In this document: piece after piece, positions 38,631 to 64,000 of the stretch
Layout: every line of letters begins with the position of its first letter
How positions within the stretch are numbered: position 1 is the first letter of the stretch
Assembly: GCA_037974665.1 (NCBI GenBank)
Contig: CM075773.1
Location: 19,830,146-19,894,145, forward strand
Length of the DNA: 64,000 nt
Direction: 5' to 3'
Origin: Ehretia macrophylla
Taxonomy: Eukaryota > Streptophyta > Magnoliopsida > Boraginales > Ehretiaceae
The notes under the pieces: generated by a model
What the model was told of the DNA's origin: nothing
Seen by the model: the letters and a program-made list of their open reading frames with translations, nothing else
The model's database searches: none
Position numbers and translations under genes: made by a program

Positions 38631-39194
38631 TTCATCAATGTCGGGAAACTTTAATCCTTTTGCGCTGTTTTTTCGTCCCGGATCGTACGTCATGAGCTGC
38701 GAAAAGGACGACAGCCTAATCCATCACATTTCTATAACCGAATCCCATGGCGCCTTGGAACGAGACAACTTCACTTCATGTAGAGGCTGGGCCCGCAAAC
38801 CGTTGGCGTGGCGCTTGGGAACAGGTCTCCGTCGCTCCAGAGCCCATAACTTTTGATCCGTACGGAGTTACGCAGCCCACAGCATACCGTTGGAAAGCTC
38901 TCCGAGAGCTCTACAACGGGGCAGCCAAGCCCGCTTCGTGGGGCCTTTTTTCGGAGCCCAAAATCGAATGTTTTCATCAGTTTCGGGATACTTTTCTTCT
39001 TTTGCTCTATTTTTCTGTCCCGGATCGTACGTCGTGAGATGTGAAAACGACGACAGCCTAATCCATCACATTTATTTTACCGAATCCCACGGCGCCTTGG
39101 AACGAGACAACTTCACTTCACGTAGAGGCTGGGCCCACAAACCGAGGGCGTGGCGCTTGGGACCAGGTCTCCGTTGCTCCGGAGCCCATAACTT

Positions 39195-39627: not shown

Positions 39628-39879
39628 ATCCGTAAGGAGTTACGCGGCCCACAGCATACCATTGGAAAGCTCTCCGAGTGCTCCACGACGGGGCAGAAAA
39701 GCTTGCTTAGCGGGACCTTTTTTCAGAACCCAAAATCGAAAGTTTTCATCAATTTCGGGACACTTTTATCCTTTTGCGCTATTTTTCGGTCCCGAATCGT
39801 ATGTCGTGAGCTGGGAAAAGGACGACAACCTAATCCATCACATTTCTATTACCGAATCCTATGACGCCTTGGAACGAGA

Positions 39880-40840
39880 CAACTTCACTTCATGTAGAGG
39901 CTGGGCCCGCAAACCGAGGGCGTGGCGATTGGGACCAGGTCTCCGTCGCTCCGGAGCCCATAACTTTTGATCCGTAAGGAGTTACGCGGCCCACAGCATA
40001 CCGTTGAAAAGCTCTCCGAGAGCTCTACGACAGGGCAGCTAAGCTCGCTTTGCTGGGGCATTTTTCGGAGCCCAAAATCGAACATTTTCTTCAGTTTCGG
40101 GACACTTTTATCCTTTTGCGTTATTTTTCCGTCCTGGATCGTACGTCATGAGTTGCGAAAAGGACGATAGCCTAATCCATCACATTTCTATTATCGAATC
40201 CTACGACGCCTTGGAACGAGACAACTTCACTTCATGTAGAGGCTGGGCCCGCAAACCGAGGGCGTGGCGGTTAGGACCAGGTCTCCGTCGCTCCGAAGCC
40301 CATAACTTTTGATCCGTAAGGAGTTACGCGGCCCACAGCATACCGTTGGAAAGCAGTCCAAGAGCTCCACGACGGGGCAGAAAAGCCTGCATTGCTGGAG
40401 CTTTTCTCAGAGCCCAAAATCGAACGTTTTCATCAGTCTCGGGACACTTTAATACTTTTGCACTGTTTTTCCGTCCCAAATCGTACGTCGTGAGCAACGA
40501 AAAGGACGACAGCCTAATCCATCACATTTCTATAAACGAATCCCACGGCGCCTTGGAACGAGACAACTTTTGATCCGTAAGGAGTTACGCGGCCCACAGC
40601 ATATCGTTGGAAAGCTCTCCAAGAGCTCTACGACGGGGCAGCCAAGCCCGCTTCGCTCGGGCTCTTGTCAGAGCCCAAAATCAAACGTTTTAATCAGTTT
40701 CGGGACACTTTTATCCTTTTGCGCTGTTTTTCCGTCCTGGATCGTACGTCGTGAGCTGCGAAAAGTACGACAGCCTAATCCATCACATATTTATTACCGA
40801 ATCCCACGGCGCCTTGGAACGAGACAAATTCACTTCACGT
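39880..40840 (+). repeat. Satellite block, copy 1, with an 81-bp deletion
   Basis: This block matches 53800-54779 at an offset of 13924 bp before position 40570 and 14005 bp after it. The 81-bp difference is a deletion joining GACAACTT to TTGATCC, with AACTT present at both ends in the intact copy. Both copies share the variants CAGAAAAGCCTGCATTGC and GCTTTTCTCAG. The restored offset is 41 monomers. Confidence 0.8.
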
Positions 40841-43800
40841 AGAGGCTGGCCAAGCAAACCGAGTGCGTGACGCTTGGGACCAGGCCTCCGTCGGTCCGGA
40901 GCCCATAACTTTTGATCCGTAAGGAGTTAGGCGGCCCACAACATACCGTTGGAAAGCTCTCTGAGAGCTCCACGACGGTGAAGAAAAGCCTGCTTCACTG
41001 GAGCTTTTTTTGGAGCCCAAAATCGAACGTTTTCATCAGTTTCGGGATACTTTTATCTTTTTGCGCTATTTTTCCGTCCCGGATCGTACGTCGTGAGCTG
41101 CGAAAAGGACGACAGCCTAATCCATCACATTTCTATTACCGAATCCCATAGCTCCTTGGAACGAGACAACTTCACTTCACGTAGAGGCTGGGCCCGCAAA
41201 CCGAGGGCGTGGCGATTGGGACCAGGTCTCTGTCGCTCCGGAGCCCATAACTTTTGATCCGTAAGGAGTTACGCGGCCCATAGCATACCGTTGGAAAGCT
41301 CTCTGAGAGCCCTACGACGGAGCAGCTAAGGCAGCTTTGCTGGTGTTTTTTTTGGAGTCCAAAATTGAACGTTTTCATCAGTTTCAGGACACTTTTATCC
41401 TTTTGCGCTGTTTTTCCGTCCCGGATCGTACGTCGTGAGCTGCGAAAAGGACAACAGTCTAATCCATCACATTTATATTACCAAATAACACAACGCCTTG
41501 GAACGAGACAACTTCACTTCATGTAGAGGCTGGGCCGGTAAATCGAGGGCATTGCGCTTGGGACCAGGTCTCCGTCGCTCCGGAGCCCATAACTTTTGAT
41601 CCGTAAGGAGTTACGCGGCCCACAGCATACCATTGGAAAGCTCTCCGAGAGCTCTACGACGGGGCAGCTAAGCCCGCTTTGCTGCGTCTTTTTTCGGATC
41701 CAAAAATTGAACGTTTTCATCAGTTACGGGTCACTTTTATTCTTTTGCGCTGTTTTTTCGTCCCAGATCGTACGTCGTGAGCTGCGAAACGGACGACAGT
41801 CTAATCCATCACATTTCTATTACTGAATCCCACAACTCCTTGGAATGAGACAACTTCACTTCATGTAGAGGCTGGGCCCGCAAATCGAGGGTGTGGCGCT
41901 TGGGACAAGGTCTCCGTCGCTCCCGAGCCCATAACTTTTGATCCGTAAGGAGTTACGTGGCCTACAGCATACCGTTGGAAAGCTCTGCGAGAGCTCTATG
42001 ACGGGGCAGCCATGCCCACTTTTCTGGGCTTTTTTTGGAGCCCAAAATTGAACATTTTCATCAGTTATGGGACACTTTTATCCTTTTGCGCTGTTTTTCC
42101 GTCCTGGATCGTACGTCGTGAGCTACGAAAAGGACGACAGCCTAATCCACCACATTTCTATTACCGAATCCCACGACGCCTTGGAACGAGACAACTTCAC
42201 TTCATGTAGAGCCTGGGCCCGCAAACCGAGGGTGTGGCGCTTGGGACCAGGTCTCCGTCGCTCTAGAGCCCATAACTTTTGATCCGTAAGGAGTTACGCG
42301 GCCCACAGCATACCGTTGGAAAGCTCTCTGATAGCTTTACGACAGGGCAGCTAAGCTCGCTTTGCTGGGGCTTTTTTTGGAGCCCAAAATCGAACAATTT
42401 CATCAGTTTCGGGAAACTTTTATCCTTTTGCGCTGTTTTTCCGTCTCGGATCGTACGTCGTGAGCTGCGAAAAGGACGACAGTCTAATCCATCACATTTC
42501 TATTACCGAATCCATGACGCCTTGGAACGAAACAACTTCACTTCATGTAGAGGTTGGGCCCGCAAATCGAGGGCATGGCGCAAGAGACCAGGTCTCCGTC
42601 GCTCCGGAGCCCATAACTTTTGATCCGTAAGGAGTTACGTGGCCCACAACATACCGTTGGAAAGCTCTCCGAGAGCTCTACGACGGGGCAGCTAATCTTG
42701 CTTTGCTGGGGCTTTTTTCGGAGCCCAAAATTGAACGTTTTCACTAGTTACGGGACACTTTTTTCCTTTTGCGCTGTTTTTCCGTCTCGGATCGTACGTC
42801 GTGAGATGCGAAACGGACGACAGCCTAATCCATCACATTTCTATTACTGAATCCCACGGTGCCTTGGAACGAGACAACTTCACTTCATGTAGAGGCTGGG
42901 CCCGCAAACCAAGGGCGTGGCGATTGGGACTAGGTCTCCGTCGCTCCGGAGCCCATAACTTTTGATCCGTAAGGAGTTACGCGCCCCACAGCATACCGTT
43001 GGAAAGCTCTCTGAGAGCTCTACGACGGGGCATCCAAGCCCGCTTCGCTAGGGCTTTTTTCGGTGCCCAAAATCAAACGTTTTCATTAGTTTTGGGACAC
43101 TTTTATCCTTTTGCGCTATTTTTCCGTCCCGGATCGTACGTCGTGAGCTGCGAAAAGGACGACAGCCTAATCCATCACATTTCTATTACCGACTCCCACG
43201 TCGCCTTGGAACGAGACAACTTCACTTCACCTAGAGGATGGGCCCGCGAACCGAGGGCGTGGTGCTTAGGACCAGGTCTCCGTCGCTCCGGAGCCCATAA
43301 CTTTTGATCCGTAAGGAGTTACGCGGCCCAAAGCATACCGTTGGAAAGCTCTCCGAGAGCTCTACGATGGGGTAGCTAAGCCTACTTCGCTGTGTCTTTT
43401 TTCAGAGCCCAAAATTGAACGTTTTCTTCAGTTTCGGGATACTTTTATCCTTTTGCGCTGTTTTTCCATCCCGGATCGTACGTCGTGAGCTGCGAAAAGG
43501 AAGACAGCCTAATCCATCACATTTCTATAACCGAATCCCACGGCGCCTTGGAAAGAGACAACTTCACTTCACGTAGAGGCTGGGCCCGCAAACCGAGGGG
43601 GTGGCGCTTGGGACCAGGTCTCCGTCGCTCCGGAGCCCATAACTTTTGATCCGTAAGGGTTACGCGGCCCACAGCATACCGTTGGAAAGCTCTCCGAGAG
43701 TTCTACGACGGGGCAGTTAAGCCCGCTTCGTTGGGGCATTTTTCGGAGCCCAAAATCGAACGTTTTCATCAATTTTGGGACACTTTTATATTTTTGCGCT

Positions 43801-46800
43801 GTTTTTTCGTCCCGGATCGTACGTCGTGAGCTGCGAAAAGGACGACAACCTAATCCATCTCAATTCTATTACCGAATCCCACGGCGCCTTGGAACGAGAC
43901 AACTTCACTTCACGTAGAGGCTGGGCCTGCAAACCGAGGGCGTGGCGCTGGGGACCAGGTCTCCGTCGCTCCGGAGCCCATAACTTTTGATCCGTAAGGA
44001 GTTTCGCTGCCCACAGCATACCGTTGGAAAGCTCTCCGAGAGATCTACGACGGGGCAGCCAAGCCCGCTTCGCTGGGGCTTTTTTCGCAGCCCAAAATCG
44101 AACGTTTTCATCCGTGTCGAGACACTTTTATCCTTTTGCGCTGTTTTTCCGTCCCGGATCGTACGTCGTGAGCTGCGAGAAGGACGACAGCCTAATCCAT
44201 CACATTTCTGTAACCAAAGCCCATGGCGCCTTGGAACGAGACAACTTCACTTCATGTAGAGGCTGGGCCGGCAAACCGTGGGTGTGGCGCTTGGGACCAG
44301 GTCTCCGTCGTTCCGGAGCCCATAACTTTTGATCCGTAAGGAGTTACGCGGCCCAAAGCATACCGTTGGAAAGCTCTCCGAGTGCTCTACGACGGGGCAG
44401 CTAATCCTGCGTCGCTGTGTCTTTTTTCAGAGCCCAAAATCGAACGTTTTCTTCAGTTTCGTGATACTTTTATCCTTTTGCGCTATTTTTCCATCCCTGA
44501 TCGTACGTCGTGAGCTGCGAAAAGGATGACAACATAATCCATCACATTTCTATAACCGAATCCCACGGCGCCTTGGAAAGAGACAATTTCACTTCACGTA
44601 GAGGCTGGGCCCGCAAACCGAAGGCGTGGCGCTTGGGACCTGGTCTCCGTCGCTCCGGAGCCCATAAATTTTTAATCCGCAAGGAGTTTCGCGGCCCACA
44701 GAATACCGTTGGAAAGCTCTCCGAGAGATCTATGACGGGGCAGCCAAGCCCGCTTCGCTGGGGCTTTTTTCGGAGCCCAAAATCGAACGTTTTCATCAGT
44801 GTAGGGACACTTTTATCCTTTTGCGCTGTTTTTCCGTACCGGATCGTACGTCGTGAGCTGCGAAAAGGACGACAGCCTAATCCATCACATTTCTATAACC
44901 GAATCCCATGGCGCCTTGGAACGAGACAACTTCACTTCATGTAGAGGCTGGGCCCGTAAAACGAGGGCGTGGCGCTTGGGACCAAGTCTCCGTCGCTCCG
45001 AAGCTCATAACTTTTGATCCGTAAGGAGTTACGCGGCCTACAGCATACTGTTGGAAAGCTCTCCGAGAGCTCTACTACGAGGCAGCCCAGCCCGCTTGGC
45101 TGGGGCTTTTTTCAGAGCCCTAAATCGAATGTTTTCATCAGTTTTGGGTTACTTTTATCCTTTTGCGCTGTTTTTCCATCCCGGATCGTACGTCGTGAGT
45201 TGCGAAAAGGACGACAACCTAATCCATCACATTTCTATAACCGAATTCCATGCCACCTTGGAACGAGGCAACTTCACTTCACGTAGAGGCTGGGCCCGCA
45301 AACCGAGGGCGTGGCGCTTGGGATCAGGTCTCCGTCGCTCCGGAGCCCATAACTTTTGATCCGTAAGGGATTACGCAGCCCACAGCATACCGTTGGAAAG
45401 CTGTCTGAGAGTTCTACGATGGGGCAGCTAAGCTCGCTTTGTTGGGGCTTTTTTCGGAGCCCAAAATTGAACATTTTCATCAGTTTCGGGACACTTTTAT
45501 CCTTTTGTGCTGTTTTTCCGTCCCGGATCGTACGTCGTGAGCTACGGAAAGGACGACAGCCTAATCCATCACATTTCTATTATCGAATCCTATGACGCCT
45601 TGGAACGAGACAACTTCACTTCATGTAGAGGCTGGGCCCGCAATCCGAGGGCATTGTGCTTGGGACCAGGTCTCCGTCGCTCCGGAGACCATAACTTTTG
45701 ATCCGTAAGGAGTTAAGCGGCCCACAGCATACCGTTGGAAAGCTCTCCAAGAGCTCCACGACGGTGCAGAAAAGCCTACTTCACTGGAGCTTTTTTCGGT
45801 GCCCAAAATCGAACGTATTCATTAGTTTCGGGACACTTTTATCCTTTTGGGCTGTTTTTCCGTCCCGGATCGTACGTCGTGAGCTGCGAAAAGGATGACA
45901 GTCTAATCCATCACATTTCTATTACCGAATCCCACGAAGCCTTGGAACGAGACAACTTCACTTCATGTAGAGGCTGGGCCCGTAAATCGAGGGCGTGGCG
46001 CTTGGGACCAGGTCTCCGTCGCTCCGAAGCCCATAACTTTTGATCCGTAAGGAGTTACGCGGCCCACAACATACTGTTGGAAAGATCTCCGAGAGCTCTA
46101 CGACGAGGCAACCCAGCCCGCTTGGCTGAGGCTTTTTTCGGATCCCTAAATCGAATGTTTTCATCAGTTTTTTGGTTACTTTTATCCTTCTGCGCTGTTT
46201 TTCCACCCCGGATCGTACGTCGTGAGTTGCGAAAAGGACGACAGCCTAATCCATCACATTTCTATAACCGAATCCCATGGCGCCTTGGAACGAGACAACT
46301 TCACTTCACGTAGAGGTTGGGCCCGCAAACCGAGGGCGTGGCGCTTGGGATCAGGTCTCCGTCGCTCCGGAGCCCATAACTTTTGATCCGTAAGGGATTA
46401 CGCGGCCCACAGCATACCGTTGGAAAGCTGTCCGAGAGCTCTACGATGGGGCAGCTAAGCCCGCTTTTTTGGGGCTTTTTTCGGAGCCTAAAATTGAACA
46501 TTTTCATCAGTTTCGGGACACTTTTATCCTTTTGCGCTGTTTTTTCGTCCCGGATCGTACGTCGTGAGCTGCGAAAAGGACGACAGCCTAATTCATCACA
46601 TTTCTATTATCGAATCCTACGACGCCTTGGAACGAGGCAACTTCACTTCATGTAGAGGCTGGGCCCGCAAACCGAGGGCGTGGCGCTTGGGACCAAGTCT
46701 CCGTCGCTCCGGAGCCCATAACTTTTGATCCGTAAGGAGTTACGCGGCCCACAGCATACCGTTGGAAAGCTCTCCGAGAGCTCCAAGACGGTGCAGAAAA

Positions 46801-48769
46801 GCCTTCTTCACTGGAGCTTTTTTTGGCGCCTAAAATCGAACTTTTTCATCAGTTTCGGGACACTTTTATCCTTTTGCGCTGTTTTTCCGTCTAGGATCGT
46901 ACGTCGTGAGCTGCGAAAAGGACGACAGTCTAATCCTTCACATTTCTATTATCGACTCCCATGACGCCTTGGAACGAGACAACTTCACTTCATGTAGAGG
47001 CTGGGTCCGCAAATCGAGGGCATAGCACTTGGGACCAGGTCTCCGTCGCTCCGGAGCCCATAACTTTTGATCCGTAAGGAGTTACGTGGCCCACAACATA
47101 CCGTTGGAAAGTTCTCCAGGAGCCCTACGACGGGGCAGCTAAGCCAGCTTTGCTAGGGCATTTTTTGGAGCCCAAAATCGAACATTTTCACTAGTTACGG
47201 GACACTTTTTTCCTTTTGCGCTGTTTTTCCGTCCCGGATCGTACGTCGTGAGCTGCGAAACGGACGACAGCCTAATCCATCACATTTCTATTACCGAATC
47301 CCACGGTGCCTTGGAACGAGACAACTTCACTTCATGTAGAGGCTGGGCCCGCAAAGCGAGGGCGTGGCGCTTGGGACTAGGTCTCCGTCGCTCCGGAGCC
47401 CATAACTTTTGATTCGTAAGGAGTTACATGGCCCACAGCATACCGTTGGAAAGCTCTCCGAGAGCTCTACGACTGCGCAGCCAAGCCCGCTTTGCTAGGG
47501 CTTCTTTTGGAGCCCAAAATCAAACGTTTTCATCAGTTTCGGGACACTTTTATCCTTTTGCGCTGTTTTTCCGTCCCGGATCGTACGTCGTGAGCTGCGA
47601 AAAGGACGACAGCCTAATCCATCACATTTCTATTACCAAATCTCACAGCGCCTTGGAACGAGACAACTTCACTTCACGTAGGGGCTGGGCCCGCAAACCG
47701 AGGGCGTAGTGCTTGGGACCAGGTCTCCGTCGCTCCGGAGCCCATAACTTTTGATCCGTAAGGTGTTACGCGGCCCAAAGCATACCGTTGGAAAGCTCTC
47801 CGAGAGCTCTACGACGGGGCAGCTAAGCCTGCTTTGCTGTGTCTTTTTTCAGAGCCCAAAATCGAACGTTTTCTTCAATTTTGGGATACTTTTATCCTTT
47901 TGCGCTGTTTTTCCATCCCGGATCGTACGTCGTGAGCTGCGAAAAGGACGACTGCCTAATCCATCACATTTCTATAACCGAATCCCACGACGCCTTGGAA
48001 AAAGACAACTTCACTTCACGTAGAGGCTGGGCTCGCAAACCGAGGGCGTGGCGCTTGGGACCAGGTCTCTGTCGCTCCGGAGCCCATAACTTTTGATCCG
48101 TAAGGGGTTACGCGGCCCACAGCATACCGTTGGAAAGCTCTCCGAGAGCTCTACGACGTGGCAGCTAAGTCCGCTTCGTTAGGGCCTTTTTCGGAGCCCA
48201 AATTCGAACGTTTTCATCAGTTTTGGGACACTTTTATCCTTTTGCGTTGTTTTTCCGTCTCGGATCGTACGTCATGAGCTGCGAAAAGAACGACAGCCTA
48301 ATCCATCACATTTCTATTATCGAATAACACGGCGCCTTGGAACTAGACAACTTCACATCACGTAGAGGCTGGGCCCGCAAATCGAAGGCGTGGCGCTTGG
48401 AACCTGGTCTCCGTCGCTCCGGAGCCCATAACTTTTGATCCGTAAGGAGTTTTGCGGCCCACAGCATACTGTTGGAAAGCTCTCCGAGAGACCTACGACG
48501 GGGCAACCAATCCCGCTTCACTGGGGATTTTTTCGGAGACCAAAATTGAACGTTTTCATCAGTGTCGGGACACTTTTATCCTTTTGCGATGTTTTTCCGT
48601 CCCGGATCGTACGTCGTGAGCTGCGAAAACGACGACAGCCTAATCCATCACATTTCTATAACCGAATCCCATGGCGCCTTGGAACGAGACAACTTCACTT
48701 CACGTAGAGGCTGGGCCGCAAACCGTGGGCATGGCGCTTGGGACCAGGTCTCCGTCGCTCAGGAGCCCA

Positions 48770-49805
48770 TAACTTTTGATCCGTAAGGAGTTACGCGGCC
48801 CACAGCATACCGTTGGAAAGCTCTCCGAGAGCTCTACGACGGGGCTGCGAAGCATGCTTGGCTGGGGCTTTTTTCGGAGCCAAAAATCGAACATTTTCAT
48901 CAGTTTCGGGACACTTTTATGCTTTTGCGCTGTTTTTTCGTCCCGGATCGTACATCGTGAGCTACGAAAAGGACGACAGCCTAATCCATCACATTTCTAT
49001 TATCGAATCCTACGGCGCCATGGAACGAGACATCTTCACTTCATGTAGAGGCTGGGCCCACAAACCGAGGGCGTGGCGCTTAGGACCAGGTCTCCGTCGC
49101 ACCGGAGACCATAACTTTTGATCCGTAAGGGGTTACGCGGCCCACAGCATACCGTTGGAAAGCTCTCCGAGAGCTCTACTACGGGGCAACTAAGCCCGCT
49201 TCGTTGGGTCATTTTTCGGAGCCCAAAATTGAACATTTTCATCAGTTTCGGGACACTTTTATCCTTTTGCGCTGTTTTTCCGTGCCTGATCGTACGTCGT
49301 GAGCTGCGAAACGGACGACAGCCTAATCCATCACATTTCTATTATCGAATCCTACAACGCCTTCGAACGAGACAACTTCACTTCATGTGGAGGCTGGGCC
49401 CGCAAACCGTGGGCATGGCGCTTGGGACCAGGTCTCCGTCGCTCAGGAGCCCATAACTTTTGATCCGTAAGGAGTTACGCGGCCCACAGCATACCGTTGG
49501 AAAGCTCTCCGAGAGCTCTACGACGAGGCTGCGAAGCATGCTTGGCTGGGGCTTTTTTCGGAGCCAAAAATCGAACATTTTCATCAGTTTCGGGACACTT
49601 TTATGCTTTTGCGCTGTTTTTTCATCCCGGATCGTACATCGTGAGCTTCGAAAAGGACGACAGCCTAATCCATCACATTTCTATTACCGAATCCCACAGC
49701 GCCTTGGAACAAGACAACTTCACTTCACGTAGAGGCTGGGCCCGCAAATCGAGGGCGTGGCACTTGGGACCAGGTCTCCGTCGCTCCGGAGCCCATAACT
49801 TTTGA
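48770..49805 (+). repeat. 684-bp dimer duplicated in array C
   Basis: The monomer starting at 48776 reappears at 49460 almost unchanged (shared GGCTGCGAAGCATGCTTGG and TTATGCTTTTGCGC), with a different monomer between them. The offset of 684 bp is two monomers. Confidence 0.75.
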
Positions 49806-50469
49806 TTCGTAAAGAGTTACGCGGCCCACAGCATGTCGTTGGAAAGCTCTACGACGGGGCTGCTAAACCTGCATTGCTGGTGCTTTTTTCTGAGCCCAAA
49901 ATTGAACATTTTCATCAGTTTTGGGACACTTTTATCCTTTTGCGCTGTGTTTCCGTCCCGGATCGTACGTCGTGAGCTGCGAAAAGGACGACAGTCTAAT
50001 CCATCACATTTCTATTACCGAATCCCATGATGCCTTGGATCGAGAAAACTTCACTTCATGTAGAGGCTGGGCCCGTAAATCGAGGGCATTGCGATTGGGA
50101 CCAGGTCTCCGTCGCAACGGAGCCCATAACTTTTGATCCGTAAGGAGTTACGTGGCCCACAGCATACCGTTGGAAAGCTCTCCGAGAGCTCTACGACGGG
50201 ACAGTTAAGCCAGCGTTGCTGGGTCTTTTTTCGGAGCCCAAAATTGAACGTTTTCATCAGTTACGGGATACTTTTATCCTTTTACGCTGTTTTTTCGTCC
50301 CGGATCGTACGTCGTGAGCTGCGAAACGAACTACAGTCTAATCCATCACATTTCTATTACCGAATCCCACAACGTCTTGGATTGAGACAACTTCAATTCA
50401 TGTAGAGGCTGGGCCCGCAAATCGAGGGCGTGGCACTTGGGACAAGGTCTCCGTCGCTCCGGAGCCCAT

Positions 50470-53400
50470 AACTTTTGATTCGTAAGGAGTTACATGGCCC
50501 ACAGCATACCGTTGGTAAGCTCTCCGAGAGCTCTACGACGGGGCAGCCGAGCCCGCTTTGCATGGTCTTTTTTCAGAGCCCAAAATTGAACATTTTCATC
50601 AGTTACGGAACACTTTTATCCTTTTGCGCTGTTTTTTCGTCCCGGATCGTACGTCGTGTGCTGCGAAAACGACGACAGTCTAATCCATCACATTTCTATT
50701 ACCGAATCCCACGACGCCTTGGAACGAGACAACTTCACTTCACGTAGAGGCTGGGCCCGTAAACAAAGGGCGTGGCGCTTGGGATCAGGTCTCCGTCGCT
50801 CCGGAGCCCATAACTTTTGATCCGTAAGGGGTTACGCGGCCCACAGCATACCGTTCGAAAGCTCTACGAGAGCTCTACGACGGGGCAGCTAAGCCCGCTT
50901 CGTTGGAACTTTTTTCGGTGCCCAAAATTGAACATTTTCATCAGTTTCGGGACACTTTTATCCTTTTGCGCTGTTTTTTCATCCCGGATCGTACATCGTG
51001 AGCTGCGAAAAGGACGACAGCCTAATCCATCACATTTCTATTATTGAATCCTACGACACCTTGGAACGAGACAACTTCACTTCATGTAGAGGCGGGGCCC
51101 GCAAACTGAGGGCGTGGCGCTTGGGACCAGGTCTCCGTCGCTCCAAAGCCCATAACTTTTGATACGTAAGTGGTTACGCGGCCCACAGCATACAGTTGGA
51201 AAGCACTCCGAGAGCTCTACGACGGGGCAGCTAAGCCCGCTTCGTTGGGTGTTTTTTCGGAGCCCAAAATTGAATATTTTCATCAGTTTCGGGACACTTT
51301 TATCCTTTTGCGCTGTTTTTTTGTCCCGGATCGTACGTCGTGAGCTGCGAAAAGGACGACAGCCTAATCCATCACATTTCTATTATCGAATCTTACGATG
51401 CCTTGGAACGAGACAACTTCACTTCATGTAGAGGCTGGGCCCGCAAGTCGAGGGCGTGGCGCTTGGGACCAGGTCTCCGTCGCTCCGAAGCCCATACTTT
51501 TGATCCGTAAGGAGTTACGCGGCCCACAGCATACCGTTGGAAAGCTCTCCGAGAGCTCCACGACGGGGAAAAAAAGCATGCTGCACTGGAGCTTTTTTCG
51601 GAGCCCAAAATCGAACGTTTTCATCAGTTTCGAGACACTTTTATCCTTTTGCGTTGTTTTTCCGTCCCGGATTTTACGTCGTGAGCTGCGAAAAGGACGA
51701 TAGCCTAATGCATCACATTTCTATTACTGAATCCAACGATGCCTTGGAACGAGACAACTTCACTTCATGTAGAGGCTGGGCCCGTAAATCGAGGGCATTG
51801 CGCTTGGGACCAGGTCTCCGTCGCTCCGGAGCCCACAACTTTTGATCTGTCAGGAGTTACGTGGCCCACAGCATACCGTTGGAAAACTCTCCGAGAGCTC
51901 TACGACGAGGCAACCAAGCCCGCTTTGTTAGGTCTTTTTTTGGAGCCCAAAATTGAACGTTTTCATCAGTTACGGGACACTTTTATCCTTTTGCGCTGTT
52001 TTTTCGTCCCGGATCGTACGTCGTGAGCTGCGAAACGGACGACAGTCTAATCCATCACATTTCTATTACCGAATCCCACAACGCCTTGGAATGAGACAAC
52101 TTCACTTCATGTAGAGGCTGGGCCCCCAAATCGAGGGCGTAGCGCTTGGGACAAGGTCTCCGTCGCTCCGGAGCCCATAACTTTTGATCCGTAAGGAGTT
52201 ACGTGGCCCACAGAATACCTTTTGAAAGCTCTCCGAGAGCTTTACGACGGGGCAGCTAAGCTCGCTTTCCTGGGGCTTTTTTCAGAGCCCAAAATCGAAC
52301 ATTTTCATCAGTTTCGGGACACTTTTATCCTTTTGCTCTGTTTTCCCGTCTCGGATCGTACGTCGTGAGCTGCAAAAAGGACGACAGTCTAATCCATCAA
52401 ATTTTTATTACTGAATCCCATGACGCCTTGGAACGAGACAACTTCACTTCATGTCGAGGCTGGGCCCGCAAATCGAGGGCATGGCGCTTCGGACCAAGTC
52501 TCCGTCGCTCCGGAGCCCATAACTTTTGATCCGTAAGGAGTTACGTGGCCCACAACATACCGTTGGAAAGCTCTCCGAGAGCTCTACGACGGGGCAACGA
52601 AGCCTACTGGGGGCTTTTTTCGGAGCCCAAAATCGAACATTTTCATCAGTTTCGGGACACTTTTTTCCTTTTGCGCTGTTTTTTCGTCTCAGATCGTACG
52701 TCGTGAGCTGCGAAAAGGGCCGACAGTCTAATCCATCACATTTCTATTACCAAATCCCACGACGCCTTGGAACGAGACAACTTCACTTCATGTAGAGGCT
52801 GGGCCCGCAAATCGAGGGCATAGCGGTTGGGACCAGGTCTCCGTCGCTCCGGAGCCCATAACTTTTGATCCGTAAGGAGTTACATGGCCCACAGCTTACC
52901 GTTGGAAAGCTCTCCGAGAGCTCTACGACGGGGCAGCCAAGCCCGCTTTGCTGGGTCTTTTTTCGGAGCCCAAAATTGAACGTTTTCATTAGTTACGGAA
53001 CACTTTTATCCTTTTGCGCTGTTTTTTCGTCCCGGATCGTACGTCGTGTGCTGCGAAAAGGACGACAGTCTAATCCATCACATTTCTATTACCGAATCCC
53101 ACGACGCCTTGGAACGAGACAACTTCACTTCACATAGAGGCTGGGCCCGCACACCGAGGGCGTGGCGCTTGGGATCAGGTCTCCGTCGCTCCGGAGCCCA
53201 TAACTTTTGATCCGTAAGGGGTTACGCGGCCCACAGCATACCGTTGGAAAGCTCTACGAGAGCTCTACGACGGGGCAGCTAAGCCCGCTTCGTTGGGGCT
53301 TTTTTTGGAGCCCAAAATTGAACATTTTCATCAGTTTTGGGACACTTTAATCCTTTTGCGCTGTTTTTTCATCCCGGATCGTACATCGTGAGCTGCGAAA

Positions 53401-53550
53401 AGGACGACAGCCTAATCCATCACATTTCTATTATCGAATCCTACGACGCCTTGGAACGAGACAACTTCACTTCATGAAGAGGCTGGGCCCGCAAACCGAG
53501 GGCGTGGCACTTGGGACCAGGTCTCCGTCGCTCCAGAGCCCATAACTTTT
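50470..53550 (+). repeat. Seven-monomer spaced duplication in array C
   Basis: Monomers near 50475-51160 and 52865-53550 share rare variants at an offset of 2390 bp, close to seven monomers. Examples are GTCGTGTGCTGCG in place of GTCGTGAGCTGCG, and GCTCTACGAGAGCTC in place of GCTCTCCGAGAGCTC in the monomer that follows. The intervening monomers match less clearly. Confidence 0.6.
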
Positions 53551-53799
53551 GATCCGTAAGGGGTTACGCGGCCCACAGCATACTGTTGGAAAGCTCTACG
53601 AGAGCTCTACGACGAGGCAGCTAAGCCCGCTTCGTTGGGTCTTTTTTCGGAGCCCAAAATTGAACATTTTCATCAGTTTCGGGACACTTTTATCCTTTTG
53701 CGCTGTTTTTCCGTCCCGGATCATACGTCGTGAGCTGCGAAAAGGACGACAGCCTAATCCATCACATTTCTATTATCGAATCCTACGACGCCTTGGAAC

Positions 53800-54779
53800 G
53801 AAACCACTTCACTTCATGTAGAGGCTGGGCCGGCAAACCGAGGGCGTGGCGATTGGGACCAGGTCTCCGTCGCTCCGGAGCCCATAACTTTTGATCCGTA
53901 AGGAGTTACGCGGCCCACAGCATACCGTTGGAAAGCTCTCCGAGAGCTCTACGACAGGACAGCTAAGCTCGCTGTGCTGGGGCATTTTTCGTAGCCCAAA
54001 ATCGAACATTTTCATCAGTTTTGGGACACTTTTATCCTTTTGCGTTATTTTTCCGTCCCGGATCGTACGTAATGAGCTGCGAAAAGGACGATAGCCTAAT
54101 CCATCACATTTCTATTATCGAATCCTACGACGCCTTGGAACGAGACAACTTCACTTCATGTAGAGGCTGGGCCCGCAAATCGAGGGCGTGACGGTTAGGA
54201 CCAGGTCTCCGTCGCTCCGGAGCCCATAACTTTTGATCCGTAAGGAGTTACGCGGCCCACAGCATACCGTTGGAAAGCTCTCCAAGAGCTCCACGACGGG
54301 GCAGAAAAGCCTGCATTGCTGGAGCTTTTCTCAGAGCCCAAAATCGAACGTTTTCATCAGTTTCGGGACACTTTTATACTTTGGCGCTGTTTTTCCGTCC
54401 CAAGTCGTACGTCGTGAGCAGCGAAAAGGACAACAGCCTAATCCATCACATTTCTATAAACGAATCCCACGGCGCCTTGGAACGAGACAACTTCACTTCA
54501 CGTAGAGGCTGGGCCCGCAGACCGAGGGCGTGGCACTTGGGACCAGGTCTTCGTCGCTCCGGAGCCAATAACTTTTGATCCGTAAGGAGTTACACGGCCC
54601 ACAGCATATCGTTGGAAAGCTCTCCAAGAGCTCTACGACGGGGCAGCCAAGCCCGCTTCGCTCGGGCTCTTTTCAGAGCCCAAAATCAAACATTTTAATC
54701 AGTTTTGGGACACTTTTATCCTTTTGCGCTGTTTTTCCGTCCTGGATCGTACGTCGTGAGCTGTGAAAAGGACGACAGC
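53800..54779 (+). repeat. Satellite block, copy 2, cut by the lone LTR
   Basis: Paralogue of 39880-40774. It lacks the 81-bp deletion and stops at GACGACAGC where the lone LTR begins. In the uninterrupted copy the same sequence continues past 40774 as CTAATCCATCAC, so 40774/40775 is an empty-site reference for the left edge of the LTR. Confidence 0.8.
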
Positions 54780-57700
54780 TGTGAGGCCCGACCCCGAATA
54801 ACGTGCCTTACCTTGATTTGCGTGCCTTAGACCTAGAACTGTACGACTGACCCTAGATTACGTGCCCTGTTTTGGTTTTCGTGCATGCCTCGTTATACGT
54901 GCCTTAACCTAAAATTGTGTGCCCTAATCCTCGATATACGTGCGATACCTAGATAAACATGCCATGACCTTAATTTACGTGCGAGACCTCGATTTGCTTG
55001 TGTCTCTTCGTTTCGTGTGCATTAACCTTGAACTGCGTGCTTTAACCTAGGTTTAAGAGTCGTGTCTTGAATTACGTGCCTTGTATTGGTTTACGTACAT
55101 TTATATAGGGATTGCGTGCATTTGCATTGAAATCTGTGCATTAGTCTTGAAGTACGTGCATTAGTCTTGTAGTTCGTGTCTACCCCGTAATTCGTGCCCT
55201 AGACCTAGGAATCCGTGCCACCACGTTGATCAAGAAAGAATCCTACACAAAGCACTAGACACTAAAATAATCCTACACAATCCACTAACCAATATTATAT
55301 TCCTAATTCAAATTCTCTACAAACTCCACTAACAATAAAATAATACTAAACTATTCCTACATTTTCCACTATCTATTATTCTATTCATAATTCAACTCAT
55401 CAACAAACATATCCTATATTCTATTCTACCTAAAATCCCTAAATACCCAACATTCTCTTACACACATGTTAAAACAATTCAAAAGATGACACAAAATCAG
55501 ATTTTTGCATGCATGTTTAATTCAAAATGATTCTAGACAAGTCATGACACAAAAACACTTATCAATGCATAAAAAATTGCTCAAACCACCTCAATTCTCA
55601 CACCATTTTCGACCAAACCACCTATGCCCATGCTAACATTTCAAAATTCCATCTTGAAGACAAAAAAATTCTGAATTTGTATGCCCAAGGCTGACCACAT
55701 GCTCAAAAAATTGCAAAAGCCTCCTTTTTCTCTCATTTCTCTCACTTTCCTCACATTTTCTCTCTCCATTTCGGTTTTGGCTGAGTTCTCTACCTCCATA
55801 GCTTCTCTTCTTCACACCATAGCTAAACCAAGCAAGCCACAAGCAAAGGACCTCAACCGAACAAGCTAGGATGCAAAAATCACTCATGCATGTGCATTGA
55901 AGCTTCATTTTCGGCCCTAGGTGAGTTTTTAAGCTTCCATTTCTTTTCTTCTTGTTCTACCCTCATGCATGTACTAAGAGCTTGGTCACTAAGCTAGGAA
56001 AATAGAGAAAACCAAGTTTGAATCTCGGCTAAGCAAGAAGAAGAAGAGATTTGAAGCTTCAACACGTTTTTGAGCATCTTTTGGTTGATTGCTAAGGTGA
56101 GGGTTAAAAGCTTTTGAAAACTCTTTGAAATCTCACATGCATGTTCATAAATGTGTATATTTGCTTCTGTACTTGAGTTATGTGGTCGTTCATGAGCTTA
56201 AACAACCATGCATGGCAAGATCTTGGCCTGAAAATGATGCTAGGTGAAGTCGAATTCTTGTGATAGCTCTCTGACCAGTCTGTTCGAGGTACGTTTAGCT
56301 AAGAAAATGATGTTGAAAATGCTTGAAAATTGGTGGGTGACTAGTTTGGACAGTTTTTAACATTTTTCCCAGAAATAGGCCGAAGCTAATTTTGACTCTA
56401 AGGTCCTCAAAATGACAAATCTTTAAAATGTGACCAAATCTGGAAATCTGGAAAAATGAATCAGGTTTTGGCAGATGCACTGACCTTGTGGAACGAACCA
56501 TATTTGACTTAGTAAATGTTGTCCAAAATGCATGGAAATTGGGGTGCTGATAGATTTTCAGTTCTGGACAACTTTGTCAGAAATAGACCAAAGCTAAAAA
56601 TGACTCTAAGGACCTCAAAAACGTCATTCTCTGAAAAGTGTGCAAATCTGGACAGTTTTGTGTTACCTCACTGTTTCGGTTATAACTAATGATTCTGAAC
56701 TCCACTTGATGCAAGGCTTGTTGCTGATTTTAGATAACTTCTTAAGCTTTAATTTGACATCTTATTCACTGAATTTGGAGATTTTTTGATTATCCTATTG
56801 ATTATGAGAAAACAGCCTATTGCAGTGAGTGTTCCACTTAGCTATGTGCTTGGAAAACTATTGTAACCTCTCTTGTGGCACTAGTTGCTTGGAATTGTGG
56901 TGTTGGAATATTATGTGGACTGTTTAAGCACTTGAGAATGTATGAATTGAATAATGTATGACTTGGGAATGATGTTAAGTTGACTTAGGGTTTGATCGCA
57001 CGATTATGCATGAAATGGAAACCCTAATGACTAAGTATCCTTGCTAAGTGTTAACCATTGGATATTGTGAGGAAACTGTACGTTGCGTGGGCTGCCCGTA
57101 AATGTTTTATAACTTTAAAAGTGATCTTGACCATTGCATGTTGACAAATAAGCTTTTCTCGCATTTGAACCCTTGTTGATATCACTGCATGTTGAGTAAT
57201 CTTATCACTTGATTGCGTGGACTTTTAATGAGTTATATGGCCTATTTTACATGCGTTACATGGCTGCCCGTTTAATTTCCATATAACTCTATATGCCTTT
57301 CAAGTGAAATTTCCTGTCTTATCATGTCCTGCCTGTTTATCTGTCAATGTGCAATCTTATGACTGTCCGGAGGCAACCTACTTTGTTGTCCTCCTTCTGT
57401 GATATATATTATCTGTCATAAATGTGCATTGCATACAAGGTTGCAACCTTTCCTGTCGGCATGGTAGCGATCACGTACGTCGGGCGGCATCGGGCTTGCC
57501 GGTGATACCGTGACCACCATGGTCATATTCAGTCTCTCGCGTGGGGGCTAGACTTCCTCGGAGAGTTGGGTCGTAGGATTTTGGGGTACATCCGGAGTAC
57601 ACCCACCTGGTGTGTTTGGGGAATGATTTGAAGTCGGCCGCAACTTCTGATTCTGAAACTGATCTGAGAGCAAAAGCTCGCCGTATCCTTTTTATTATGT

Positions 57701-58605
57701 GTATAAGTACTCCCGCTTGGATCCTAGAGAACCTCGGGGAGGAAAGACCGGTATTCCTGTTCTGTACTTGTATTTCTGTACTTGTATTTCTGTTGTATTC
57801 ATGTTTAAAAAGGGATTTTCATAAGTTTAACCGGAAAATGAGTTTCAAAACTTATTTCTCGTTCCCCCTCGCTGAGTTCATAAGGACTCACCCTCTTTTA
57901 TCATCTCAGGTGAAGAAGAATAGGTACAGGAACCCGATGATAATGTACCTAATGATGAACCCCTGGAGTGATTGCCTGTTATTGTTGTTTGCTTGAACGT
58001 GACTACTTGTGTACCCTGTGCTGCTTGAAGACTATTTACCTTATGTTGTTGTTGTCGTTAATGTAAATGACCCCGTTGTAATTTGGGTCTAATTCTGGGA
58101 TTGTACTATCTATAACCGGACAAACTTTTATTTGGTTGTTTGCTTTTGTTTTCTTCATTAGTAGTTATCATAGGCATTCAAACCACTAGATGAACAATCA
58201 ACTAAGTTAATTCTATCTAATTTCACTTAGGTGCTCATTTGCAAACTAAAGGATAATAGGTACTTGCATGATAGGAAATTGACAAATAAACGGGACATAG
58301 TTATCATGTTAGGCTTATTAACCAAACAAGACTTTCAAGATAAACTAGTAGGCAAATCGGTTGGTGACAAATAGGAGTCTTTAATGGAATTGGATTAATG
58401 ATTGGAATAATTGAGGCGTTTAGAGAATTAGGTCAAAACAAAGAGCCCAATTACAGCCGTTATGCTGCCGGATTTCCGAAAAAATTTGGAGTCTAGAATA
58501 AAACGTTAAGTGCTAAACCTCCTAGAATGATTAAGAATGTGGAAGGACTTGAATGTTTAGATCACACCCTAGTCTAACCTTTATAGGCTGGGTTGGGGCG
58601 TGACA
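54780..58605 (+). mobile_element. Lone LTR (element 3), 3826 bp, at a satellite orientation switch
   Basis: It begins TGTGAGGCCCGACCCCG and ends GGTTGGGGCGTGACA, with no internal region beside it. Layout follows the other LTRs: ACGTG mini-repeats (54795-55220), an AT-rich part with a CT-rich tract near 55728-55780, the 209-bp-type duplication (about 56325-56720), and the conserved block with GTCGTAGG and GGTACATCCGGAGTACACCC near 57570-57605. The five bases on the left are ACAGC and on the right CCAGC, not a clean duplication. Satellite on the left is + orientation A-C type; on the right it is reversed D type. It is therefore not a simple solo LTR left by recombination within one element. Confidence 0.88.
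54795..55220 (+). repeat. ACGTG mini-repeat block in the lone LTR
   Basis: Same degenerate units of about 20 bp as in element 2, aligning nearly unit for unit through GATAAACATGCCATGACC, then with a few units missing. TACGTG occurs repeatedly. Confidence 0.7.
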
Positions 58606-60073
58606 CCAGCAAAGCGGGATAAGCTGCCCCACCGTAGAGCTCTCGGAGAGCTTTCCAACGGTATGCTGTGGGCCGCGTAACTCCTTGCGGATCAAAAGTT
58701 ATGGGCTCCGGAGGGACAGAGACCTAGTCCCAGGCCACACGACCTCGGTTTGCGGGACCAGCCTCCACGTGATGCGAAGTTGCCTTGCCCAAGTTGCCGT
58801 GGGATTCGGTAATAGAAATGTGACGGATTTGGTTGTCGTCCTTTTCGCGGCTCACAACGCGCGATCTGGGACGGAAAAACAGCCCAAAAGAAGAAAAGTG
58901 TCATGAAACTGATGGAAACGTTCGATTTTGGCCTCAAAAAAAAGTCCAAGAGAAGCGAGATTAGCTGCCCCGTCGTAGAGCTCTCGGAGAGCTTTCCAAC
59001 GGTATGCTGTGGGCCGCAAAACTACTTGCGGATCAAAAGTTATGGGCTCCGGAGCGACGGAGACCGGGTCCCAAGCCACACGACCTCGGTTTGCGGGCCC
59101 AGCCTCCACGTGATGCGAAGTTGCCTTGCCCAAGGTGCCGTGGGATTTGGTAACAGAAATGTGACGGATTAGTTTGTCGTCCTTTACGCGGCTCACGACG
59201 CGCGATCTGGGTCCGAAAAACAGTGCAAAAGAAGAAAAGTGTCCCGAAATTGATAAAAACGTTCGATTTTGGGCTCCGAAAAAAGGCCCAACGAAGCGAG
59301 CTTGGCTGCCTCGCCGTAGAGCTCTCGGAGTGCTTTCCAATGGTATGCTGTGGGCCGCGTAACTCCTTGCGGATCAAAAGTTATGGGCTCCGGAGGGATA
59401 GAGACCTAGTCCCAGGCCACACGACCTTGGTTTGCGGGCCCAGCCTCCACATGATACGAAGTTGCCTTGCCCAAGTTGCCGTGGGATTCGGTAACAGAAA
59501 TGTGACGAATTTGGTTGTCGTCCTTTTTGCGGCTCACGACGCGCGATCTGGGACGGAAAAACAGCCCAAAAGAAGAAAAGTGTCCCGAAATTGATGAAAT
59601 CGTTCGATTTTGGGCTCCGAAAAAAGGCCCAGCAAAGCTGGCTTAGCTGCCCCGTCGTAGAGCTCTCGGAGAGCTTTCCAACGGTATGCTGTGGGCTGCG
59701 TAACTACTTGCGGATCAAAAGTTATGGGCTCCGGAGGGACAGGGACCGGGTCCCAGGCCACACGACCTCGGTTTGCGGGCCCAGCCTCCACGTGATGCGA
59801 AGTTGCCTTGCCCAAGGTGCCGTGGGATTCGGTAACAGAAATGTGACGGATTAGGTTGTCGTCATTTTCGCGGCTCACGACGCGCGATCTGGTTCGGAAA
59901 AACAGTGCAAAAGAAGAAAAGTGTCCCGAAACTGATGAAAACGTTCGAATTTGGGCTCGAAAAAAAGGCCCAGCGAAGCAAGCTTCGCTGTCGCGCCGTA
60001 GAGCTCTCGGAGAGCTTTCCAATGGTATGCTGTGGGCTGCGTAACTTCTTGCAGATCAAAAGTTATGGGCTCC
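58606..60073 (-). repeat. D-array block, copy 1 of an ~11-monomer unit
   Basis: This 1.47-kb block is matched by 62354 to about 63821 at an offset of about 3748 bp (11 monomers). Shared variants include CAGCAAAGCGGGATAAGC at the start and CCTCAAAAAAAAGTCCAAG. The second copy is preceded by normal satellite, so it shows what stood left of 58606 before the LTR. Confidence 0.75.
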
Positions 60074-62119
60074 GGACCGTCAGAGACCTGGTCCCAATCC
60101 ACACGACCTCGGTTTGCGGGCCCAGTCTCCACGTGATGCGAAGTTTCCTTGCCCAAGGTGCCGTGGGATTCGGCAACAGAAATGTGACAGAATAGGTTGT
60201 CGTCCTTTTCGCGGCTCACGACCCGCGATCTGGGACGGAAAAACTTCGCAAAAGAAGAAAAGTGTCCCGAAATTGATGAAAACGTTCGATTTTGGGCTCC
60301 GAAAAGAGTCCCAGCAAAGCGGGCAAAGCTGCCCCGTCGTAGAGCTCTCGCAGAGCTTTCCAATGGTATGCTGTGGGCCGCGTAACTTCTTGCAGATCAA
60401 AAGTTATGGGCTCCGGACAGTCAGAGACCTGGTCCCAATCCACACGACCTCGGTTTGCGGGCCAAGCCTCCATGTGATGCGAAGTTGTCTTGCCCAAGGT
60501 GCCGTGGGATTCGGTAACAGAAATGTGACGGATTAGGTTGTCGTCCTTTTTGCGGCTCACGACGCGCGATCTGGGATGAAAAAACAGCGCAAAAGAAGTA
60601 AAGTGTCCTGAAACTGATGGAAACGTTCGATTTTGGCCTAAAAAAAAAGTCCAAGCGAAGCGAGATTAGCGGCCTCGTCGTAGAGCTCTCGGAGAGCTTT
60701 CCAACGGTATGCTGTGGGCCGCGTAACTACTTGCGGATCAAAAGTTATGGGCTCCGGAGCGACGGAGACCGGGTCTCAAGCCACACGACCTCGGTTTGCG
60801 GGCCCAGCCTCCACGTGATGCGAAGTTGCCTTGCCCAAGGTGCCGTGGGATTCGGTAACAGAAATGTGACGGATTAGGTTGTCGTCCTTTTCGCGGCTCA
60901 CGACGCGCGATCTGGTTCGGAAAAACAGTGCAAAAGAAGAAAAGTGTCCCGAAACTGATGAAAACGTTCGATTTTGGGCTCGAAAAAAAGGCCCAGCAAA
61001 GCATGCTTCGATGCCCCGCCGTAGAGCTCTCGGAGTGCTTTCCAACGGTATGCTGTGGGCCGCGTAACTCCTTGCGGATCAAAAGTTATGGGCTGCGGAC
61101 CGTCAGAGACCTGGTCCCAATCCACACGACCTCGGTTTGCGGGCCCAGTCTCCACGTGATGCGAAGTTTCCTTGCCCAAGGTGCCGTGGGATTCGGCAAC
61201 AGAAATGTGACAGAATAGGTTGTCGTCCTTTTCGCGGCTCACGACCCGCGATCTGGGACGGAAAAACTTCGCAAAAGAAGAAAAGTGTCCCGAAATTGAT
61301 GAAAACGTTCGATTTTGGGCTCCGAAAAGAGTCCCAGCAAAGCGGGCAAAGCTGCCCCGTCGTAGAGCTCTCGCAGAGCTTTCCAATGGTATGCTGTGGG
61401 CCGCGTAACTTCTTGCAGATCAAAAGTTATGGGCTCCGGACAGTCAGAGACCTGGTCCCAATCCACACGACCTCGGTTTGCGGGCCAAGCCTCCATGTGA
61501 TGCGAAGTTGTCTTGCCCAAGGTGCCGTGGGATTCGGTAACAGAAATGTGACGGGTTAGGTTGTCGTCCTTTTTGCGGCTCACGACGCGCGATCTGGGAT
61601 GAAAAAACAGCGCAAAAGAAGTAAAGTGTCCTGAAACTGATGGAAACGTTCGATTTTGGCCTAAAAAAAAAGTTCAAGCGAAGCGAGATTAGCGGGCTCG
61701 TCGTAGAGCTCTCGGAGAGCTTTCCAACGGTATGCTGTGGGCCACGTAACTCCTTGCGGATCAAAAGTTATGGGCTCCAGAGCGTCGGAGACCTGGTCTC
61801 AAGCCACACGACCTCGGTTTGCGGGCCCAGCCTCCACGTGATGCGAAGTTGCCTTGCCCAAGGTGCCGTGGGATTCGGTAACAGAAATGTGACGGATTAG
61901 GTTGTCGTCCTTTTCGCGGCTCACGACGCGCGATCTGGTTCGGAAAAACAGTGCAAAAGAAGAAAAGTGTCCCGAAACTGATGAAAACGTTCGATTTTGG
62001 GCTCGAAAAAAAGGCCCAGCAAAGCATGCTTCGATGCCCCGCCGTAGAGCTCTCGGAGTGCTTTCCAACGGTATGTTGTGGGCCGCGTAACTCCTTGCGG
62101 ATCAAAAGTTATGGGCTGC
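60074..62119 (-). repeat. 1023-bp trimer, two nearly identical tandem copies
   Basis: Sequence from about 60074 repeats from about 61097 at an offset of exactly 1023 bp (three 341-bp monomers). Only a handful of differences are visible, clustered near 60660-60770 against 61680-61795. The match breaks down abruptly just before 60074 and after 62119. Within the unit, neighbouring monomers differ at many positions, so this is a very recent three-monomer duplication. Confidence 0.88.
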
Positions 62120-62353
62120 GGACCGTCAGAGAGGTCCCAAGCCACACGACCTCGGTTTACCGGCCCAGCCTCCACGTGATGCGGAGTTGCCTTGCCCAAT
62201 GTGCCGTGGGATTGAGTAACAGAAATGTAGCGGATTAGGTTGTCGTCCTTTTCGCGGCTCATGACGCGCGATCTGGGACGAAAAAACAGTGCAAAAGAAG
62301 AAAAGTGTCGCAAAACTGATAAAATCGTTCGATTTTGGGCTCCGAAAAAAGGT

Positions 62354-63821
62354 CCAGCAAAGCGGGATAAGCCGCCCCGCCATAGAGCTCTCGGAGAGCT
62401 TTCCAACGGTATGCTGTAGGCCGCGTAACTCCTTGCGGATCAAAAGTTATGGGCTCCGGAGGGACAGAGACCTAGTCCCAGGCCACACGACCTCGGTTTG
62501 CGGGCCCAGCCTCCACGTGATGCGAAGTTACCATGCCCAAGTTGCTGTGGGATTCGGCAACAGAAATGTGACGGATTTGGTTGTCGTCCTTTTTGCGGTT
62601 CACGACGCGCGATCTGGGACGGAAAAATAGCCCAAAAGAAGAAAAGTGTCCTGAAACTGATGGAAACTTTCGATTTTGGCCTCAAAAAAAAGTCCAAGCG
62701 AAGCGAGATTAGCTGCCCCGTCGTAGAGCTCTCGGAGAGCTTTCCAACGGTATGCTGTGGCCACGTAACTACTTGCGGATCAAAAGTTATGGGCTCCGGA
62801 GCGACGGAGACCGGGTCCCAAGCCACACGACCTCGGTTTACAGGCCCAGCCTCCACGTGATGCGAAGTTTCCTTGCCCAAGGTGCCGTGGGATTCGGTAA
62901 CAGAAATGTGACGGATTAGGTTGTCGATCTTTACACGGCTCACGACGCGCGATCTGGGTCCGAAAAACAGTGCAAAAGAAGAAAAGTGTCCTGAAATTGA
63001 TAAAAACGTTCGATTTTGGGCTCCGAAAAAAGGCCCAGCGAAGCGGGCTTTGCTGCCTCGCCGTAAAGCACTCGGAGTGCTTTCCAACGGTATGCCGTGG
63101 GTCGCCTAACTCCTTGCGGATCAAAAGTTATGGGCTCCGGAGGGACAGAGACCTAGTCCCAGGCCACACGACCTCGGTTTGCGGGCCCAGCCTCCACGTG
63201 ATGCGAAGTTGCCTTGCCCAAGTTGCCGTGGGATTCGGTAACAGAAATCTGACGAATTTGGTTGTCGTCTTTTTTGCGGCTCACGACGAGCGATTTGGGA
63301 CGGAAAAACAGCCCAAAAGAAGAAAAGTGTCCCGAAATTGATGAAATCGTTCGATGTTGGGCTCCGAAAAAAGGCCCAGCGAAGCGGGTTTAGCTGCCCC
63401 GTCGTAGAGATCTCGGAGAGCTTTCCAACGATATGCTGTGGGCTGCGTAACTACTTGCGGATCAAAAGTTATGGGCTCCGGAGGGACAGGGACCGGGTCC
63501 CAGGCCACACGACCTCGGTTTGCGGGCCCAGCCTCCACGTGATGCGAAGTTACCTTGCCCAAGGTGCCGTGGGATTCGGCAACAGAAATGTGACAGAATA
63601 GGTTGTCGTCCTTTTTACGGCTCACGACGCGCGATTTGGGACGAAAAAACAGCGTAAAAGAAGAAAAGTGTACCGAAACTGATGAAAATGTTCGATTTTG
63701 AGCTTAGAAAAATGTCCCAGCAAAGCGGGCTTAGCTGCCCTGTCGTAGAGCTCTCGGAGAGCTTTCCAACGGTATGCTGTGGGCCGCGTAACTTCTTGCA
63801 GATCAAAAGTTATGGGCTCCG
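62354..63821 (-). repeat. D-array block, copy 2 of an ~11-monomer unit
   Basis: Matches 58606-60073. Here the satellite is continuous on its left side (AAAAAAGGT then CCAGCAAAGCGGG), giving an empty-site reference for the right edge of the lone LTR. After about 63821 the sequence again resembles the start of the trimer unit, as expected for a repeating higher-order unit. Confidence 0.75.
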
Positions 63822-64000
63822 GACCGTCAGAGACCTGGTCCCAAGCCACACGACCTCGGTTTGCGGGCCCAGCCTCCATGTGATGCGAAGCTGTCTTGCC
63901 CAAGGTGCCATGGGATTCGGTAACAGAAATGTGACGGATTAGGTTGTCGTCCTTTTCGCGGCTCACGACGTGCGAACTGGGACGAAAAAACAGCGCAAAA

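Follow-up and report, generated by a model that had tools for sequence, protein, structure and literature searches.

Swapped target-site duplications point to crossover between inverted long terminal repeats as the probable cause of an inversion in satellite DNA of Ehretia macrophylla

How does one long terminal repeat (LTR) come to lie exactly between two satellite arrays that differ in both orientation and subfamily? This question is raised by a 64,000-bp stretch of the Ehretia macrophylla genome (assembly GCA_037974665.1, contig CM075773.1; C10:19830146-19894145), which is called the window here; searches covered the 1.58-Gb genome in 20 contigs. The window is mostly a 341/342-bp satellite, as detected by Tandem Repeats Finder (TRF), broken by three elements of one Ty3/gypsy family. 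The LTR in question (54780..58605, plus strand) is a solo LTR of 3,826 bp, TGTGAGG...GTGACA, assigned to this family by similarity (80% over about 3.1 kb). On its left is an A-C-type 342-bp satellite array in plus orientation (33864..54779 by TRF; 60/60 monomers), and on its right is reversed D-type satellite (58606..64000, minus; 15/15 monomers). Satellite abuts both ends of the LTR, with ...GGACGACAGC directly before TGTGAGG and ...GCGTGACA directly before CCAGCAAAGCGGG, and next to it there is no internal sequence of the kind that borders LTRs in complete copies. From the window we cut 123 monomers with at least 325 aligned bases, dropping shorter pieces. All 108 monomers left of the LTR are in plus orientation and all 15 right of it in minus orientation. 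Mean identity is 89.2% among A-C monomers, 89.9% among D monomers and 83.3% between the two, and the nearest neighbour gave the correct subfamily class in 123/123. The edges of the LTR, its lone status and the switch from plus A-C to reversed D satellite had been described in an initial annotation, and all were borne out.

The five bases on either side of the LTR bear on its origin. ACAGC on the left (54775..54779, plus) and CCAGC on the right (58606..58610, plus) are unequal, as had already been pointed out, and have 4/5 bases in common. A solo LTR formed by recombination within one element carries a matching duplication on both sides, and the window LTR does not. The initial annotation proposed that two LTR copies, one in an A-C array and one in a D array, had recombined, and predicted a reciprocal junction consisting of D-type satellite plus CCAGC, the LTR, and ACAGC plus CTAATCC. 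This junction was found once genome-wide, exact to the base, at C20:51838284-51842096 on the minus strand. It reads ...GGTCCAGC (D type), LTR, ACAGCCTAATCC... (A-C type), or in a longer form ...CGAAAAAAGGTCCAGC, LTR, ACAGCCTAATCCATCAC..., and it is the sole exact match to the LTR 3' end followed by ACAGCCTAATCC among 28 matches with up to one mismatch. Upstream of the reciprocal LTR stands AAAAAAGGT, the sequence that the annotation had taken from a window paralogue at 62354. The reciprocal LTR is 3,813 bp long and differs from the window LTR at 43/3,812 sites. The target duplications are mismatched within each copy and matched across the copies (ACAGC/ACAGC and CCAGC/CCAGC). In the window, ACAGC represents the A-C insertion, as the 5' half of its target-site duplication, and CCAGC the D insertion, as the 3' half; the partners of these two pentamers adjoin the reciprocal LTR in ACAGCCTAATCC and GGTCCAGC, respectively. 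The exact reciprocal junction thus supports the proposed recombination between LTR copies, as does the inverted arrangement described below.

The window-type junction is also duplicated, colinearly, at C20:52422881-52426707. Across the left junction, 10 flank bases and 291 LTR bases recur with 100% identity at C20:52422871; flank, LTR and flank together, 6.5 kb, are 98.7% identical with one gap, and the LTRs alone differ at 16/3,826 sites. A search of the whole genome for the left junction gave 25 matches with up to 2 mismatches, 2 of them exact (C10 and C20), and one for the right junction gave 7 matches with up to 1 mismatch, again 2 of them exact; the exact forms are confined to this pair. 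The two junction LTRs on C20 are 580,784 bp apart and in opposite orientation. We mapped orientation along C20 with twenty 800-bp samples at round positions, 19 of which are satellite and one mostly N. The satellite is minus in 7/7 samples at 51.00-51.81 Mb, plus in 8/8 at 51.87-52.38 Mb and minus in 4/4 at 52.48-52.78 Mb. The subfamilies follow in the order A-C minus (51.76, 51.81), reciprocal LTR, D plus (51.87-52.12), A-C plus (52.18-52.38), window-type LTR and, just beyond, D minus; a related LTR is present at both inversion breakpoints. The outer samples (up to 51.70 and from 52.48 on) fit both subfamily classes poorly, and an extra 400-bp sample at 51.990 matched no reference. When the inner segment of the sampled map is un-inverted, the array becomes minus throughout, with A-C joined to A-C and D to D. 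The A-C array of the window corresponds to one side of the inverted segment, and its D array lies outside it.

When the four flanks are joined crosswise, two in-register empty sites are recovered, each with a 5-bp duplication. The A-C join, made of the last 210 bp of the window left flank and the reciprocal right flank with one ACAGC removed, is 97.1% identical over 1,689 aligned positions, with one gap, to an uninvaded paralogue of the A-C insertion site in the window (40565..42252, plus); further A-C stretches align to joins of this kind with about 90% identity over as much as 4.5 kb. Adjoining this paralogue, at 40304-40827, an irregular 261-bp satellite unit lies amid the 342-bp array. The D join, made of the reciprocal left flank and the window right flank with one CCAGC removed, is 93.9% identical over 800 positions, with one gap, to an uninvaded paralogue of the D insertion site (61962..62758, minus; site 62354-62358), and 94.1% identical without a gap to a C20 locus (L010). 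Register-shifted joins gave gapless spanning matches in 0/40 cases for A-C and 0/40 for D, whereas one was obtained for each in the correct register. A join of the two flanks that border the window LTR had no spanning match among the loci compared. Both uninterrupted paralogues named in the initial annotation exist, although the sequence it gave at 40774/40775, GACGACAGC, is off by one base; the DNA reads TACGACAGC and then CTAATCC. The D paralogue reads GGTCCAGCAAAGC at 62351.

These results argue that, on an ancestor of C20, about 581 kb became inverted through a crossover between two LTR copies in opposite orientation, a reading to which we give a probability of roughly 0.87. Two LTR copies of one young Ty3/gypsy subfamily would have stood in opposite orientation in a single satellite array, the first flanked by the duplication ACAGC in an A-C block and the second by CCAGC in a D block, the blocks then being co-oriented. 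A non-allelic crossover between these LTRs would have inverted the approximately 581 kb between them and swapped their flanks, leaving two lone LTRs with mismatched duplications, one between A-C and D (C20:52.423 Mb) and one between D and A-C (C20:51.838 Mb). Because both products are solo LTRs, both parents may already have been solo, or one product may have collapsed afterwards. Later, the block would have been duplicated between C20 and C10, or one of the two may be a misplaced haplotype, and the second breakpoint would have been lost on C10. The assembly itself shows the two reciprocal junctions, the empty sites as restored and the map of orientation and subfamily in the samples, and among the readings considered, only the inverted-LTR crossover explains all of them. 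The 1.1% divergence between the window and reciprocal LTRs corresponds, very roughly, to about 0.4 million years at a substitution rate of 1.3e-8 per site per year. The annotation had left the choice between an inversion and a translocation; the inversion, on C20, is what stood, with the window as an additional copy on C10.

Several points weigh against this reading. Of the two junctions, C10 has only the one in the window. In 20 samples of C10, the satellite is minus at 18.60-19.44 Mb (9/9), plus at 19.50-19.80 Mb (5/5) and minus at 20.03-20.25 Mb (3/3), the remaining samples being one retrotransposon and two N. The left boundary of the plus block, at about 19,486,016, is a direct switch from satellite to satellite without an LTR (L123, C10:19485100-19488300), where two alignments overlap by 3 bp and the satellite on the left fits A-C and D about equally. 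Therefore, C10 has one original breakpoint, that in the window, and its other, left edge is different. Genome-wide pattern searches of the assembly found no un-recombined parent or uninverted copy. We also aligned six LTRs, namely those of the window, its C20 copy and the reciprocal, the 5' LTR at C20:52598977, one C10 3' LTR and the lone LTR at C10:19.52 Mb. The alignment has 19 shared-variant columns, 12 of them private to the window/C20 pair and one grouping this pair with C20:52598977, and no column pattern maps the crossover point. The orientation map depends on 800-bp samples, and the evidence comes from the assembly only, with runs of N in the scaffolds near the arrays (samples at 20.4 and 20.7 Mb on C10 and at 52.88 Mb on C20). 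Finally, the lone LTR at C10:19.52 Mb (L047, C10:19519600-19526599; C20 counterpart L006) also has mismatched flanks, CACGTGA and GTCTTGCC, without an orientation switch; these flanks are about ten bases apart in the monomer. Since C10:19524300 has these same flanks, it was ruled out as a reciprocal junction on C10.

Other candidates were rejected on their flanks as well. The copy at C20:52598977 (5' flank ATGTCCAGC) is not the intact D parent, because only 256 bp of its D flank match that of the reciprocal (99.6%). Beyond these 256 bp the satellite abruptly becomes one of a different type, and the LTR chain that begins here has ATGGAG as its 3' flank. The abrupt change indicates a second rearrangement, in which this junction was again involved. 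The chain itself (L014, L050; C20:52598977-52616177) has three LTR starts about 6.7 kb apart. Two further places with GTCCAGC exactly before the LTR, on C7 and C14 (L028, L040), have other flanks and were ruled out.

A reciprocal translocation or an unequal exchange between arrays of different chromosomes, for example C10 and C20, might be considered, as the window copy is on C10 and the two contigs have several LTR insertions in common, in the same order, over about half a megabase. These include an LTR with the 5' flank CACGTGA, a single LTR flanked on either side by CCAGC and a chain of LTRs whose 3' flank is ATGGAG, though the 5' flanks of the chain differ. However, both junctions are on C20 and mutually inverted, and un-inversion restores the orientation and both subfamily blocks in the samples, which makes such an exchange improbable. 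The common block may be either a duplication or a misplaced haplotype. In both cases the window junction is older than the split between C10 and C20, because 12 differences (11 substitutions and a gap, in columns 69 to 3812) set the two window-type LTRs apart from the other four in the alignment. The same differences bear on the possibility that assembly paths crossed inside near-identical inverted 3.8-kb LTRs and flipped the 581-kb segment. The two LTRs are indeed 98.9% identical and inverted, the scaffolds contain runs of N, and the junctions are known from the assembly alone. Yet two contigs contain the junction, and their LTRs, though different at 16/3,826 sites, keep the 12 common differences, so that the junction behaves as an inherited unit; moreover, pattern searches turned up no un-recombined form, and the fetched pieces containing the junctions have no N. 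An artefact is thus quite improbable. The initial annotation had named two observations that would count against recombination between LTR copies, and neither appeared: the junction recurs in a second contig, and pattern searches gave no full element with the same two flanks. Scarcely credible is that an orientation switch came first and a single LTR was inserted exactly there, its duplication being mutated later, because, even though ACAGC and CCAGC agree at 4/5 bases and a direct, LTR-free orientation switch occurs at C10:19,486,016, this demands a base-exact coincidence in which every one of the five bases on either side belongs by origin to the array it adjoins, and we reject it as failing to predict, and being contradicted by, a reciprocal junction with exactly both missing duplication halves.

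How do ordinary insertions of this family look? Matching duplications are found in the full-length element of the window (AGTTA) and, as CCAGC on both sides, in single LTRs at C10:19.76 and C20:52.305-52.309 Mb, whose middles were not read. Control insertions were taken from position lists without fetching flanks, and the 3' list covers only ends close to the pattern. With the two window-type copies set aside, 23 LTR 5' ends lie at flanks like the A-C site. Five of the 23 have a same-strand 3' end with a CTAATCC flank 3.5-10.9 kb away (C9 three times, C13 and C16), and the other 18 have no partner in that 3'-end list. The pentamers are ACAAC on both sides in 4/5 pairs, and ACAAT and ACAAC in one. 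Ordinary insertions here can therefore retain both duplication halves, unlike the window LTR.

The insertions also recur at one place in the monomer. Among 265 junctions with up to one mismatch, 32 have exactly ACAGC or CCAGC before the LTR, and 30 of these (L017-L046) were fetched and read. The D site is used in 25/30, the A-C site in 1/30 (the window) and other positions in 4/30; of the other two exact junctions, the C20 window-type copy is at the A-C site and C20:52598972 at the D site. Family LTRs thus occupy one monomer position (AAAA..GG..CAGC before the LTR) on many chromosomes. CCCACAGC, AAAAACAGC and GGGCCCAGC are each common in A-C monomers, yet no LTR among the 30 lies at any of them. 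Some fetched junctions are copies of one event (L018/L019, L034/L046). Pairs such as L028/L043, in which the LTR is 3.7% and the flank 18.7% diverged, combine young LTRs with diverged flanks, which argues for independent insertions at one position. Against repeated insertion, the median divergence in 325 pairs of 26 loci is greater for the LTR (27%) than for the flank (19%), so that many loci may be old shared insertions; the survey is also biased, as its search pattern fixed the pentamer and exact LTR starts total 5,888. Taken together, the positions suggest that the family may have a preferred insertion site and insert repeatedly at one satellite monomer position. We raise only tentatively, as something we think unlikely on present evidence, that such insertion at one or two monomer sites seeds arrays with equivalent 3.8-kb hinges, so that satellite inversions and subfamily reshuffling would recur at predictable points. 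If this were true, the inversion described here would be one instance of a continuing process that gives satellite arrays their mosaic of orientations.

Two other family members lie in the window. A full-length relative (3654..15557, minus strand) has LTRs that are 97.75% identical, the target-site duplication AGTTA and a 1,529-amino-acid gag-pol frame, in which a domain search found gag, protease, RT-RNase H and integrase in Ty3/gypsy order; it shows the structure of the family and its 5-bp duplication. The second (29721..33863, plus strand) is a related LTR still preceded by a polypurine tract, and it is therefore a truncated element, not a solo LTR. Elsewhere on C10, 5S rRNA genes are present at C10:20250000-20250800 (L100; two Rfam matches, one of them truncated where the locus ends), and in the spacer between them a single satellite monomer occurs, with about 79% identity. 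This resemblance suggests that the satellite and the 5S spacer may be of common origin.

The origin of opposite-orientation blocks in satellite arrays is usually guessed, since a breakpoint within tandem repeats is difficult to locate. In the present case the LTR duplications serve as molecular tags, which allowed both breakpoints to be located to the base. The locus would directly exemplify an inversion driven by a retrotransposon in satellite DNA, and swapped target duplications offer a simple, searchable signature for further cases in complete assemblies. The mechanism is an ordinary, textbook one; what is unusual is that both breakpoints are base-resolved within satellite DNA. In a limited literature search, no account of reciprocal LTR-hinged inversion breakpoints inside a satellite array surfaced.

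Devos in 2002 and Ma in 2004 are said to have attributed plant solo LTRs without matching target-site duplications to recombination between elements. The window LTR is like these in being a lone LTR with non-matching flanks. Unlike in those cases, the reciprocal product was also recovered here, and this indicates exchange rather than decay of a duplication. As far as the available passages go, the category 'solo-notsd' is used for solo LTRs in PMC3060143, and recombination between LTRs of different elements is discussed in PMC2672092. In African rice, the accessible part of PMC3060143 describes an inversion with one breakpoint in an LTR retrotransposon, and an LTR element at a plant inversion breakpoint is common to both cases; there, the element is split, with a deletion at each breakpoint, whereas here a clean single LTR in satellite forms each breakpoint. 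In Atlantic cod, according to the available passages of PMC12368964, inversions arose by ectopic recombination between inverted transposable elements. As in cod, related elements in opposite orientation stand at both breakpoints, the inversion lies between them and recombinant copies remain; the cod elements are tandem MITE-type repeats, while those here are single LTRs in satellite DNA. These passages of the cod paper do not contain the term target site duplication, whereas in Ehretia macrophylla it is the swapped 5-bp target duplications that tag the exchange.

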